DNA from: Cyanobium sp. E1_MAG_00006
GTDB lineage: Bacteria; Cyanobacteriota; Cyanobacteriia; PCC-6307; Cyanobiaceae
Reading direction: 5' to 3'
Assembly (NCBI GenBank): GCA_027488975.1
Contig: JAIYAQ010000032.1
Location: forward strand, 1 to 64,000
Length of the DNA: 64,000 bases
Part shown: one piece after another, positions 31,298-35,394 of the stretch
Numbering within the stretch: the stretch's first letter is position 1
Layout: every line of letters starts with the position of its first letter
The notes under the pieces: model-generated
What the model was told of the DNA's origin: nothing
What the model saw: only the letters and a program-made list of their open reading frames with translations
Database searches by the model: none
Position numbers and translations under genes: made by a program

Positions 31298-31990
31298 TCA
31301 GAAGGGACAAGGGGAGTGAAACCTCAGCTCCCGGCCCGAATCCGGGTGCTGAAACCCGAGGGTGGTGGCGTGCAGATGCAGCCGCCGCTGACCGGCCAGC
31401 GGCGGAGGCGGACCATAGAGCGGATCCCCAAGGATGGGATGACCGATGGCGCTGAGGTGCACCCGCAGCTGATGGGAGCGACCCGTCAGGGGCCGCAGCT
31501 CCAGGCGGCTGCTGGCACCGCCGCAGGAGGCAGCAAGCAGCCGCCAGTCGGTGCGGCAGGGCTTGCCAGCCGGATCCGCGCCGTAGAGGGGCGGTCGATG
31601 CTGCTGCTTGGCAATCGGCAGGGTGATGCAGCCCTCCGGATCGTCAGGGACACCACGCACCTCGGCGACATACAACTTCAGCACCGCCCGCTCAGCGAAC
31701 AGCGCACTCAGCTCGCGGTGCAGATCGGCGCTGAGCGCCACCAGGATCAGGCCTGAGGTATCGCGGTCGAGCCGGTGCACCAGCTGTGCCTCGGGCCAGC
31801 GGGAGCGCACGCGCGTGATCAGGGAATCCGCCAGATCGGGTCCGAGTCCGGGTTGAGAGAGCAGGCCCGCCGGCTTGTTGAGCACCAGCAGACCGTCGCC
31901 GCCATGAAGGATCCAGGCATCCGGGAGCTGGCCCGCTGCAAGCTGGCCCGCTGCAAGCACCCCCTCAGCAGGTCCTGCCGCTGTGGCCAT
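31298..31990 (-). CDS. RluA-family pseudouridine synthase
   Basis: A 230-residue enzyme. The catalytic Asp is in VHRLDRDTSGLILVAL. Other motifs are LLVLNKPAGLLSQPG, RPLTGRSHQLRVHLSAIGHPILGDPLYG and the C-terminal LHATTLGFQHPDSGRELRF. There is no S4 domain, as in RluA and TruC-type tRNA or rRNA pseudouridine synthases. The N-terminus contains a duplicated AAGQL segment encoded by a 15-bp tandem repeat. The start overlaps the end of the upstream GGDEF gene by 26 bp. Confidence 0.9.
   Translation of the reverse strand: MATAAGPAEGVLAAGQLAAGQLPDAWILHGGDGLLVLNKPAGLLSQPGLGPDLADSLITRVRSRWPEAQLVHRLDRDTSGLILVALSADLHRELSALFAERAVLKLYVAEVRGVPDDPEGCITLPIAKQQHRPPLYGADPAGKPCRTDWRLLAASCGGASSRLELRPLTGRSHQLRVHLSAIGHPILGDPLYGPPPPLAGQRRLHLHATTLGFQHPDSGRELRFHSPCPF
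31926..31955. repeat. 15-bp tandem duplication within the RluA-family gene
   Basis: Two identical 15-bp copies (agctggcccgctgca at 31926-31940 and 31941-31955) lie head to tail in the 5' end of the RluA-family gene. They duplicate five residues in frame. It looks like a recent replication-slippage event in a tolerant N-terminal region. Confidence 0.85.
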
Positions 31991-32981
31991 CGGCCAGCAT
32001 TCGAGCGATCTGATCGCGACCGTTTCCCTTGGCCAGATACAACGCCTGATCAGCCCGGTAGAAGAGATCCGAGAAGCTGGCGTCAGCCCCCACCAACGCC
32101 GTCACGCCACCACTGATGTGGGGGCGGTAGTCGGACTGACTGAAGACGCCGGCCATGGTCGCCACGTCCTGGCGGATCCCCTCGGCATTCGCCATCGCCT
32201 GGCCGTCATCGCAGTCGGGAAACAACACGGCGAACTCCTCATCGCCGATGCGACCGAACAGGTCCTGGGGCCGAAGGCGTTGCTCAGCCAGACGGCAGAT
32301 GTCGAGCAGCACCCGATCGCCCGCCTCATGGCCCCAGCGGTTGTTGATCTGACGGAAGTCGTCGATGTCGAAATTGAGCAGAGCCAGGGGCCGGCCGTCG
32401 CGGCGGGCCTGCTGCAGCTCCTGTTCGCCGAGTCTGAAGAAACTGCTGCGGTTCACCAGGCCGGTGACCGGGCAGAGGCTGCTGAGCCGGCGCAGTTCCA
32501 GCTCCCGCATCACCAGGTCGGCCATCGTCTGCAACTGATTGAGCTGGCCGGCCTCAAGCCGGCGCGGCTGCTGATCAATCACGCAGAGGGTGCCGAGGTT
32601 GTGGCCTTCGGGTGAACGCAGGGGAGCACCCGCGTAGAAGCGGATGTGCGGCTCATCGAGCACGAGGGGATTGGTGGCGAAGCGATCATCCGCACGGGCG
32701 TCGGGCACCATGAGCACCCCATCGCCGACGATGGCATGGGCGCAGAAGGCCATTTCGCGCGGTGTTTCGCTGGCATCGAGACCATGCCGCGCCAGAAACC
32801 ACTGACGATCCCGATCGACCAGCGATACCAGGGAGATCGGCATGTCGAGCACGGTGCTCGCCAGCTCGACGATTCGATCCAGATGGGGATCGGCCGGGGT
32901 GTCGAGAACGCCATGGCGCAGGAGGTCGCGCAGGCGCTGCTCCTCATCGACGGGGATCGGGTAGTCGGGGAAGGGGGGCAC
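31965..32981 (-). CDS. GAF-GGDEF protein with altered signature (GDEEF) and intact I-site
   Basis: A 338-residue cytoplasmic protein from a GTG at 32981. A GAF domain (about residues 25-160, MPISLVSLVDRDRQWFLARHG, FYAGAPLRSPEGHNLGTLCVID) is followed by a GGDEF domain (about 170-335). The metal-binding NFDIDDFRQINN is present. The signature reads GDEEF (246-250) rather than GG(D/E)EF, so the second Gly is Asp. An RPQD I-site (237-240) lies exactly five residues before it, as in product-inhibited diguanylate cyclases. It may be a weak cyclase or a c-di-GMP receptor. The GAF domain resembles sensors of redox or small ligands. Confidence 0.9.
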   Translation of the reverse strand: MPPFPDYPIPVDEEQRLRDLLRHGVLDTPADPHLDRIVELASTVLDMPISLVSLVDRDRQWFLARHGLDASETPREMAFCAHAIVGDGVLMVPDARADDRFATNPLVLDEPHIRFYAGAPLRSPEGHNLGTLCVIDQQPRRLEAGQLNQLQTMADLVMRELELRRLSSLCPVTGLVNRSSFFRLGEQELQQARRDGRPLALLNFDIDDFRQINNRWGHEAGDRVLLDICRLAEQRLRPQDLFGRIGDEEFAVLFPDCDDGQAMANAEGIRQDVATMAGVFSQSDYRPHISGGVTALVGADASFSDLFYRADQALYLAKGNGRDQIARMLADGHSGRTC

Positions 32982-33087
32982 GTTGGAGTTCCTCCGTCTT
33001 CACCGTAGGTCGGCCGGGACGGAGTGGCAGGAGGCCCTGGCGTCTGCATGGGGCCATCGCCACACTGACGGCAGCCGGCAACGCACC

Positions 33088-33462
33088 ATGGCTCTCGAGC
33101 GCTTCAAACAGGCCCTGGCTTCGCTGCTGGATGGAGCTCCCAGTGATCCGCTCGAGCGCGATGAATACTTCGAGCTGCACACCCTGCCCACCGCTGGCGG
33201 GCAGGACTTTGAGGTGGTGATCTGCGACGAGGAGAAGGAGATCTTCGCCGTGATCTACACCGCGCACCTGTTCGAGGAGGGAGAGGAGGGCCAGGAGGCG
33301 GTGGAGGCCCTGGTGCCGGCCTTCCTGGAGCAGGCCTTCGGTCTGACCCCTGAGGAGTGGCAGAGCAGCGAACCCTTCGATCTGGGCTGGCGCAGCCGCG
33401 AATACCTCTGGTTCATGGAGTTCGCGGTGCCCGGCCTGACGCCGCTCTGCCGCTACGACTGA
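33088..33462 (+). CDS. Conserved cyanobacterial hypothetical protein, acidic
   Basis: A 124-residue protein from the ATG at 33088; the frame is open upstream to 32983 but that part looks non-conserved. It is acidic and aromatic, with strands (FELHTLPTAGGQDFEVVIC, EIFAVIYTAHLFEEGEEG) and a WFMEFAVPGLTPLCRYD C-terminus. No known catalytic motif is seen. The sequence character (balanced, not Arg-rich) supports real coding. It overlaps the convergent gene by 10 bp. Function is unknown. Confidence 0.65.
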   Translation: MALERFKQALASLLDGAPSDPLERDEYFELHTLPTAGGQDFEVVICDEEKEIFAVIYTAHLFEEGEEGQEAVEALVPAFLEQAFGLTPEEWQSSEPFDLGWRSREYLWFMEFAVPGLTPLCRYD

Positions 33463-33755
33463 ACCTCCAGCAGCTGCACGGCCAGCTGCGGCAGGCTGAC
33501 CAGCAGCAGTACCCCATCTCCCTCGGGCACGGGCAGACCCGTCGCTGCCCTCAGCGCGTCACGCTCCATCAGAGCGATGCCGCAGGTCTCGACCAGGAGC
33601 AGGGGGAACGTACCGGGCCCACCGCGCATGGCCTGCAGATCGAGGGCCTGACGCGCCGCCCGGGAGCTCCGCTCCAGACCGAGACGGCCGACCAGTTCAG
33701 GCCAGAGGTGGTTGACCGGAGTGGCTGCAGCGAGATCGAGATCGGATGTCTGCAT
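33453..33755 (-). CDS. Small hypothetical protein downstream of the SepF-core gene
   Basis: A 100-residue protein from the ATG at 33755; an upstream ATG-type codon at 33785 would add ten residues. The sequence LVGRLGLERSSRAARQALDLQAMRGGPGTFPLLLVETCGIALMERD and a C-terminal hydrophobic strand (GVLLLVSLPQLAVQLLEV) suggest a small alpha/beta protein. It follows the SepF-like gene by 35 bp and is the last of four minus-strand genes. It is not recognised as a known family. Confidence 0.55.
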   Translation of the reverse strand: MQTSDLDLAAATPVNHLWPELVGRLGLERSSRAARQALDLQAMRGGPGTFPLLLVETCGIALMERDALRAATGLPVPEGDGVLLLVSLPQLAVQLLEVQS

Positions 33756-33790
33756 GGGCAGCAGGCTGGATCGCGGCATCAGCATGCCGC

Positions 33791-34072
33791 TCAGCTGCGG
33801 TGCAGATGCACGAAGTGGGGGGCGAACAGAAACACCGACTCCCCCAGCCGCTCCTGCTGCCCATCGAGGGCAAAGGCGCCGCCCGCCATGAAATCCGCTG
33901 CCCGCTGGGCCTGTTCCGGAGGCAGGGAGCTGAGATTGAGCAGCACCGTGGCGTGATCGCGCAGGGCCATCACCGCCTCCTGCACCGCCTCGAAGCTGGT
34001 GGGCTGCATCACCACCACCTCCGCGCCCCAGTGCCCTGGGTTGGGGGCGAAGTCCGGGGGCAGGAGCTCCAT
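33791..34072 (-). CDS. SepF core-domain protein (short form)
   Basis: A 93-residue protein from the ATG at 34072. It matches the C-terminal core of cell division protein SepF: EVVVMQPTSFEAVQEAVMAL, a VLLNLSSLPPEQAQRAADFMAGGAFA block with the conserved G-rich dimer loop, DGQQERLGESVFLFAP. SepF anchors FtsZ to the membrane. Usual cyanobacterial SepF is roughly twice as long, with an N-terminal amphipathic membrane helix and linker. Here both are missing. It may be a second, soluble SepF that interacts with the full one. It starts 7 bp after the preceding gene. Confidence 0.8.
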   Translation of the reverse strand: MELLPPDFAPNPGHWGAEVVVMQPTSFEAVQEAVMALRDHATVLLNLSSLPPEQAQRAADFMAGGAFALDGQQERLGESVFLFAPHFVHLHRS

Positions 34073-34079
34073 GGAATGC

Positions 34080-34328
34080 TCAGCCGTCCAGATCCGGCCC
34101 ATCCAGCATGGACGGACTGGGGTGGATTGTCTCGATGGCGTCTTCGTTGTCGAGGAACGCGTCGAAGGAGCGATAGCGGCGAATCAATGGAGCCGCCTCT
34201 GGATCCTGGCAGAGCTGCTCCCAGGTGAGCTCCTTGGGCTTCGCCTCACGGAACGCCGCCATCGCCTCGTCAAGATCACCGGCATCGCCGAATGCCTCCC
34301 CCTGAAGCAGCAGTTCGTAGAAGGTCAT
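34080..34328 (-). CDS. Small acidic protein with one TPR-like motif
   Basis: An 82-residue protein from the ATG at 34328, which overlaps the stop of the AbrB-like gene (ATGA). It is strongly acidic. The N-terminal half (MTFYELLLQGEAFGDAGDLD, then EAMAAFREAKP) resembles a single tetratricopeptide helix pair. A second helical part with PLIRRYRSFDAFLDNEDAIE and a disordered DGPDLDG tail follow. Translational coupling and short spacing tie it to the SepF-core gene downstream. Function is unknown; a protein-binding adaptor is a guess. Confidence 0.6.
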   Translation of the reverse strand: MTFYELLLQGEAFGDAGDLDEAMAAFREAKPKELTWEQLCQDPEAAPLIRRYRSFDAFLDNEDAIETIHPSPSMLDGPDLDG

Positions 34329-34582
34329 CGCCTGCATCCAGCTACGTCAGGCTGACACAGCCCCTCGGATCGAAGCCGCTCCCCGCTGCCGGAGCCTGCA
34401 CTGCCCGTGGATCGGAAGTTGAGACCGTTAACTTCAAACAGCGCTTCATCGAAGGCCGTGAAATTGAGACGCTGACGGCCAGCCTTCTTGGTACTCACGA
34501 TGCCGCCAGAGCGCGCGAGGTCGGATTTGCTGAGATCTCCCAACTCTTTCACCCTGGCGTGAAGATCGGATCCAGTGTGCAT
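34325..34582 (-). CDS. Small CyAbrB-like protein (N-terminal domain only)
   Basis: An 85-residue protein from the ATG at 34582. Residues about 5-55 (ARVKELGDLSKSDLARSGG, then VSTKKAGRQRLNFTAFDEAL) match the conserved N-terminal part of cyanobacterial AbrB-type regulators. The C-terminal AbrB swapped-hairpin DNA-binding half is absent and replaced by a short Ser/Gly/Arg-rich tail. It may be a partial copy, a specialised small regulator, or a dominant interactor of full CyAbrB proteins. The stretch has lower GC than its neighbours. Its stop overlaps the start of the next gene. Confidence 0.6.
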   Translation of the reverse strand: MHTGSDLHARVKELGDLSKSDLARSGGIVSTKKAGRQRLNFTAFDEALFEVNGLNFRSTGSAGSGSGERLRSEGLCQPDVAGCRR

Positions 34583-34719
34583 GCCCGAGACAATGCTGCA
34601 CCGAAGGTAACGGCCTGGCGCAGCATGGCCAGAGCGGACATGCTGCATGAAGAGAGATTGCACGCGGCAGCCGGCTTCGACCTGCTCATTAGCCTCAGCA
34701 CAGATCTCTGAACACGGCC
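34583..34719. other. Short divergent gap between the AbrB-like operon and the 60-aa gene
   Basis: These 137 bp separate the minus-strand AbrB-like gene from the plus-strand 60-aa gene and should hold both promoters. The base composition is less GC-rich than the window average. I cannot name a clear -10/-35 pair. Confidence 0.4.
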
Positions 34720-34902
34720 ATGAGCGTTGGCGAACTGTTCCTCGAGAGTTTCTCCACCGGTGTGATCACCGTCGAGGAAATCGACTGGATCACTGCACAG
34801 CAGGGTTGCTTCAACCGCCAGGAGGAGGCGACCGTGCTCAAGCTCGGACGCCTGCTCGACGCCGGCCGGATCCAGATCGGCTGCCGTCTGCTCAAGGCCT
34901 GA
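34720..34902 (+). CDS. Small conserved cyanobacterial protein (60 aa)
   Basis: A 60-residue protein starting at an ATG. Its sequence (MSVGELFLESFSTGVITVEE, then IDWITAQQGCFNRQEEATVLKL, GRLLDAGRIQIGCRLL) is well balanced and matches a family of about 60-residue proteins I recall from many cyanobacteria. It is mostly helical and soluble, with two cysteines. No catalytic motif is present and the function is not known. It stands alone between divergent and convergent neighbours. Confidence 0.75.
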   Translation: MSVGELFLESFSTGVITVEEIDWITAQQGCFNRQEEATVLKLGRLLDAGRIQIGCRLLKA

Positions 34903-34920
34903 CAGCCTGCGTCGTGTGGC

Positions 34921-35394
34921 TCAGATCAGCTCCGGATGGTCGGGATCGCCCTTGAACGGTCCCTCCACAGCGGAGGTGATCCAGCCCCCGTAGAAGCCGC
35001 CGGGCTGGGGGCGCACCGCTTCACCGTCCAGCCAGCAGCCATCCATCAGCGCCGGATAAACGGCGTACCAGCCCGCCAGGGCCGAGAACGCCGGGGTTGG
35101 ATCGTCGTAGCACCAGAGCGCACGAGCCAGACACCGCTCGCCCACCAGCACATCGCAATAGCGGGCCACCCCCTTCCACTCACAGAAGCTGCGACCGGCG
35201 GCGGGCCGCAGCAGTTCCGTGCGCACGGCCTCGGGCGGCAGGTAGTAGGTGGGTGGGTGGAACGTCTCCAGAACCCGCAGCGAACGGCGTGTTTCCGCCA
35301 GCCGCTCCCCGAGAGCGCGCACCAGAACATGCTGATCCGATGCCACCAGGGCCGGCGGCCGGGGGTAGTCGCAGACCCGCTCCGTCGGGGCCAT
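34921..35394 (-). CDS. DUF427 family protein
   Basis: A 157-residue protein of the DUF427 (nucleotidyltransferase-like beta-rich) family. Signature parts are VLETFHPPTYYLPPEAVRTELL, SFCEWKGVARYCDV, ALWCYDDPTPAFSALAGWYAVYP and the C-terminal DGCWLDGEAVRPQPGGFYGGW. These conserved aromatic and Pro-rich loops define the family. Biochemical function is not established. It lies 9 bp downstream of the Nif11-like gene on the same strand. Confidence 0.9.
   Translation of the reverse strand: MAPTERVCDYPRPPALVASDQHVLVRALGERLAETRRSLRVLETFHPPTYYLPPEAVRTELLRPAAGRSFCEWKGVARYCDVLVGERCLARALWCYDDPTPAFSALAGWYAVYPALMDGCWLDGEAVRPQPGGFYGGWITSAVEGPFKGDPDHPELI

Follow-up and report, generated by a model that had tools for sequence, protein, structure and literature searches.

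The window, by which we mean the whole 64,000-nucleotide stretch of DNA analysed, lies in a genome assembly of 2.70 Mb in 40 contigs. At positions 33453-34582 it carries four open reading frames (ORFs) on the minus strand, as the initial annotation had noted, and the spacing described there is also as stated: ORF A and gene B overlap literally as ATGA at 34325-34328, and 7 bp separate gene B from gene C. We refer to gene C as SepF2, a name coined for the present analysis only, and treat B, SepF2 and D as the working unit (Table 1). Gene E converges on this set from the opposite strand and overlaps the 3′ end of gene D by 10 bp; no family scored above cut-off for gene E in profile searches against Pfam and NCBIfam. 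The only promoter-like site in a scan of positions 33000-35000 falls inside gene B (0.2 such sites expected) and the only terminator-like site inside SepF2 (0.7 such sites expected), which says little either way.

Table 1. Features of the SepF2 locus, with positions numbered from the first nucleotide of the window.
Feature	Coordinates	Strand	Description
ORF A	34325..34582	-	85-aa truncated cyAbrB remnant; outside the working unit; deletion junction at about 34381/34380
Gene B	34080..34328	-	82-aa acidic protein without a named family; directly upstream of SepF2
SepF2 (gene C)	33791..34072	-	93-aa core-only SepF paralogue, PF04472
Gene D	33453..33755	-	100-aa protein without a named family; longer start possible at 33785
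Gene E	33088..33462	+	Convergent 124-aa acidic protein; syntenic neighbour on the opposite strand

The SepF core that had been claimed for gene C is clearly present, residues 19-89 matching PF04472 in Pfam at 82.5 bits (cut-off 27, E = 2.6e-23). The genome also encodes another, longer SepF (G000:C1:48077; 95.9 bits in the profile search), flanked by YggS-like and ProC-like ORFs when its surroundings are read by eye, and SepF2 is therefore a paralogue. A single FtsZ match was found by profile search, and the end of that protein, likewise read by eye, contains the motif IPSFL. Residues 1-16 of SepF2 hold no proline-free 11-mer, prolines intervening in all 14 members scanned, whereas an amphipathic stretch was recovered from each of the five canonical SepF N-termini tried (moment 0.39-0.66). 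Judged from its sequence, SepF2 is thus without the N-terminal amphipathic membrane helix and without the long linker, and because both are missing we regard it as a SepF-domain paralogue rather than a complete SepF. Compared with canonical SepF (YlmF/Cdv2), from which it also differs in lacking the C-terminal tail, it retains the PF04472 core. That known SepF proteins are larger, as the initial annotation had remarked, is true of the genome's longer SepF, but relatives also have other short SepF paralogues.

When SepF2 proteins were aligned on Bacillus subtilis SepF, the equivalents of R102, G109, G122 and P130 proved to be conserved in 22 of 22, as part of the likeness to canonical SepF. The position of F126 is more variable, being F in 12 of the 22, including the protein of the window, and L in the other 10, whereas canonical SepF has F in all 22 rows. 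In B. subtilis, G109K is reported to impair multimerisation and F126S to impair FtsZ binding (PMC5717166), and by this comparison SepF2 keeps most of the residues used for self-assembly and FtsZ-tail binding in characterised SepF. The gene is evidently under purifying selection: it differs from that of the nearest relative (L004) by no nonsynonymous and four synonymous changes, and its dN/dS against three more distant relatives is 0.11-0.20.

In a tree of 62 rows and only 77 columns, which leaves the branching order of the groups unresolved, a branch with support 99/95 separates the 22 SepF2 rows from the rest, including the 17 rows of canonical SepF (82/88); four SepF2-like rows from a second genus (g41) form a branch of their own (94/82). 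Rows L002 and L003, which are the SepF2 of the window itself and identical in protein to L004, were excluded from the tree, as were L033-L041, L063-L083, L119, and L137-L161 except L139, L140, L141 and L146; identical cores were also removed. The longer SepF of the genome differs from SepF2 in both clade and locus. Among 52 pattern stretches from viral contigs no relatives of SepF2 were found, and a phage source was not seen.

The initial annotation had staked its proposal on synteny in related genomes, and the order B-SepF2-D does recur across the genus. We searched 60 relatives, 24 of them from the same genus, for close SepF2 (at least 106 bits in an open frame of less than 200 aa), which is present in 22 of the 24 same-genus genomes and absent from G006 and G016. 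Of these 22 loci, 21 have gene B immediately upstream of SepF2 in the same orientation; the one other (L006) begins at a contig edge and was left out of the gene B and cyAbrB counts. The spacing between the two genes ranges from -1 to 53 bp. Downstream, gene D is found in 20 of the 22 loci, and gene E is kept in 20 as well. Synechococcus sp. HJ21-Hayes (locus L142) has B-SepF2-D too. In the nearest relative (L004) the proteins are 100% (SepF2), 94% (B) and 95% (D) identical to those of the window. All six g41 loci likewise have B and SepF2 adjacent, and in the stretches covered there, two of them cut by contig ends, genes D, E, G and H of the window were not found; g41 is the second genus noted above. 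Five further stretches (L156, L157, L158, L160 and L161) have a gene with GAF and GGDEF domains immediately before B in the same orientation; the related gene of the window occupies 31965-32981, on the far side of gene E. One of these stretches, L160, is titled as a Bifidobacterium breve metagenome-assembled genome and carries a picocyanobacterial B gene and the GAF-GGDEF gene; it is probably mislabelled.

Genes B and D have a wider distribution than this arrangement. Of 201 family genomes sampled, 96 have D and 87 have B; outside the window's genus (g1), 33 genomes have both, 52 only D and 43 only B. The broad distribution of gene D in the family extends to small genomes that lack B. In the phylum sample, B matched 11 of 244 genomes, all 11 of them in family f1. 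Wherever B and D occur together outside g1 (33 of 33 genomes), they lie on one strand, 13-187 bp apart, a gap that therefore leaves no room for SepF2 between them. From these distributions B-D looks like the older pair, with SepF2 lying inside it in one genus and B-SepF2 kept without D in another. The two same-genus genomes without close SepF2, G006 (L043) and G016 (L042), carry a different small ORF in the B-D interval; of the two ORFs, the one tested, at L042:1873-2124, is a DUF3136 protein (107.5 bits). Since another ORF fills the slot there, the B-D gap may accept various small genes. Taken together, B-SepF2-D is best described as a small operon-like set of freshwater picocyanobacteria, presumably co-transcribed.

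Short SepF proteins are not confined to this set. A further 20 short or divergent SepF loci were collected: 14 same-genus genomes contributed 17 of them, two came from elsewhere in the family and one from elsewhere in the class. One more short match (G018:C115) lies outside these 20 loci. Three of the collected proteins were compared with Pfam, and all three scored above cut-off. By profile, neither B nor D was detected beside any of them (0 of 20 loci). Several of the divergent short proteins at L097-L116 begin with a PFGxW-like motif (for example L101:1498-1767, L105:1471-1743 and L115:1471-1746). In a family sample of 300 genomes, 287 had a match to the SepF profile. Counted by eye, two to four matches occur in 24 of 25 g1 genomes, the exception being G017 (86% complete) with one, and genera g10, g40 and g79, which have small genomes, show one SepF match per matching genome.

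ORF A had been taken for a natural single-domain AbrB protein, which it is not. Alignment of the DNA with intact relatives shows that about 170 bp of cyAbrB are missing from the window at the junction given in Table 1, an internal, frame-shifting deletion that removes most of the PF14250 domain. The counterpart of ORF A in L004 is an intact cyAbrB of 120 aa with PF14250 at residues 43-112 (95.3 bits), whereas ORF A itself matched no Pfam family and its PF14250 AbrB-like domain was not detected. The opening 56 codons of ORF A come from a cyAbrB start and are 70% identical to the nearest relative; the ATGA overlap with gene B exists because the frame shifted by the deletion runs into B. Over these 56 codons the distances from L004 are 0.154 nonsynonymous and 0.49 synonymous (ratio 0.31), against 0-0.04 and 0.06-0.15, respectively, for the neighbouring genes; the nonsynonymous distance of ORF A is thus about as large as the synonymous distances of its neighbours and far above their nonsynonymous ones. 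The ratio of 0.31 alone would not prove decay, and because the synonymous distance of 0.49 is also high, recombination may add to the divergence. With its deletion, ORF A is a broken gene and a remnant of cyAbrB.

Synteny does not supply a regulator half either. An intact cyAbrB precedes B in 11 of the 21 informative relatives, stopping 52-150 bp before it (a gap that depends on the start codons picked by the script), and none was found upstream in the other 10, over a stretch of about 3.3 kb. cyAbrB is, moreover, multi-copy in this genome, with six matches (for example C17:1600, C17:14322, C22:6455 and C9:59514, the four listed being full length), and a relative has as many as nine. Proteins of this family (PF14250) have been linked to ftsZ transcription in Synechocystis and Anabaena (PMC7766704), but nothing found here ties the broken copy to ftsZ regulation. 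ORF A resembles these regulators in its first 56 codons and departs from them in the deleted AbrB-like domain and the shifted frame. Of the division control module that the initial annotation had suggested, there remains a conserved unit with a SepF core, B-SepF2-D; its regulator half, the truncated cyAbrB, falls away.

Gene B (pI 4.05) had been described as TPR-like. Its best TPR match reaches 15.1 bits against a cut-off of 26.3, and each TPR model was matched, below cut-off, by only 2 or 3 of the 23 members of the B family. The predicted structure (pLDDT 89.0) begins with two strands, followed by mixed helices and strands, and given the sub-cut-off matches and this mixed alpha/beta model we rejected the TPR assignment. 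A likeness to designed PPR proteins was set aside as well, the strong profile totals arising from one short stretch matched to many repeats; in several of the designed-PPR rows no single stretch passes. Gene B finds its best VIA matches among ERH proteins, with Z 5.6-5.0, rmsd 4.3-4.7 and alignments of 73-75 residues; Z scores of this size are common, and no conclusion is drawn from them. For gene D, one of 16 family members had a single Pfam match (E = 0.22), and the best sequence match in the PDB had E = 0.75. Neither B nor D matched NCBIfam or PHROGs, and Foldseek returned nothing at E ≤ 0.001 for either.

The predicted structure of gene D (pLDDT 86.7) is nearest to CcmS (Z 4.4 over 81 residues, rmsd 3.2), a weak score of a kind that is common; a second CcmS entry follows at Z 3.9 and the next rows at 2.5. 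CcmS, a carboxysome shell chaperone, is reported to dimerise and to bind CcmK1 at a short C-terminal extension (PMC11635287). Its likeness to gene D is one of fold only, since no sequence match was found, and a middling Z may simply reflect a common arrangement; we treat it as a lead.

The reading that we favour, tentatively and with slightly less than even confidence, makes SepF2 a soluble protein that binds the FtsZ tail or partners SepF and thereby tunes the Z-ring. Staying in the cytosol, SepF2 dimers would attach to the C-terminal tail of the one FtsZ present, or the core would let SepF2 form pairs with the longer SepF. Each of these interactions would compete with, or dilute, the membrane-anchored SepF, and the timing and firmness of FtsZ filament bundling and attachment would be tuned as a result. 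Gene B would be a partner or regulator of SepF2, and D a member of the older B-D pair. We infer that SepF2 binds FtsZ, that mixed dimers form and that the set is transcribed together, and likewise which way the effect runs and what B and D do. In favour of this reading are the second SepF in the genome, the single FtsZ with its IPSFL tail, the conserved core residues, the linkage to B, the dN/dS values and the separate clade; counting against it are the L found at the F126 position in 10 of 22 SepF2 and a B-D slot perhaps open to small genes.

Work on other bacteria bears on the reading from both sides. In Corynebacterium glutamicum, a SepF core without helix and linker is reported to bind and bundle FtsZ, though it neither reaches mid-cell nor complements (PMC7118173). 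SepF2 resembles this construct and is its natural counterpart, the one being made in the laboratory and the other a natural gene beside a complete SepF. SepF of B. subtilis is reported to compete with other FtsZ-tail binders, and overproduction of its membrane-dead variant L7D leaves growth and division unaffected (PMC5717166); because the L7D protein is harmless there, a soluble SepF may do little.

The main rival to the FtsZ-binder reading, which we consider somewhat unlikely, is that SepF2 has been repurposed, its core now binding another protein, such as B or D, with no further part in division. The alternation of F and L at the F126 position would fit such a change, as would the company of B and the resemblance of the gene D model to CcmS, itself a dimer that binds a short protein extension; yet most of the compared core residues are conserved and the FtsZ tail is still IPSFL, and the CcmS score is weak. 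It is also conceivable, but improbable, that SepF2 is a passenger between B and D, with a mild or redundant role and no functional tie to either. The two same-genus genomes with another small ORF in the slot, the 33 outside-genus genomes that pair B and D without SepF2, and the 20 loci at which other short SepF paralogues lie away from B and D would all suit a passenger; purifying selection on SepF2 would not, nor would its adjacency to B in g41, where D and the other neighbours seen in the window were not found. Finally, a single division control operon that joins a SepF core to an AbrB N-domain regulator, as initially proposed, has in its favour the literal four-ORF array with its ATGA overlap and the regulation of ftsZ by cyAbrB proteins reported elsewhere (PMC7766704), but it is highly improbable and already largely refuted by the deletion in ORF A, which leaves no AbrB-like domain, by the 10 of 21 informative relatives that have no cyAbrB upstream and by the other full-length copies in the genome.

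Extra SepF-like proteins are already known from Streptomyces, where SepF2 and SepF3 are also called SflA and SflB. Like the SepF2 of the window, these occur besides SepF (PMC8748795), but they belong to another phylum, and the likeness drawn here is one of description. According to the title of one study, cited in a reference entry of PMC10473828, FtsZ and DivIVA are kept from localising ectopically by SflA and SflB. What appears to be new is a natural core-only SepF in picocyanobacteria, of which we found no report in the open-licence full-text literature, a weak negative.

Cyanobacteria are reported to lack FtsA, and SepF to be essential in Synechococcus and Synechocystis (PMC8178401, PMC7766704). 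More broadly, and as a speculation that we think rather unlikely, picocyanobacteria may have a family of anchorless SepF proteins, the B-linked SepF2 among them, that would act in the cytosol as a counterpart of the membrane anchor, buffering the FtsZ tail or forming mixed dimers with SepF. With B as a dedicated partner, SepF2 would then provide cells that lack FtsA with a tunable brake or timer on the attachment of the Z-ring. Were this true, relatives with small genomes and one SepF would either never have had the anchorless protein or have lost it. An anchorless second SepF, under purifying selection and part of a conserved gene set, would make the timing and limits of Z-ring attachment in picocyanobacteria testable by one small deletion, and it would give a functional lead for two conserved protein families, B and D, that are still without a name.
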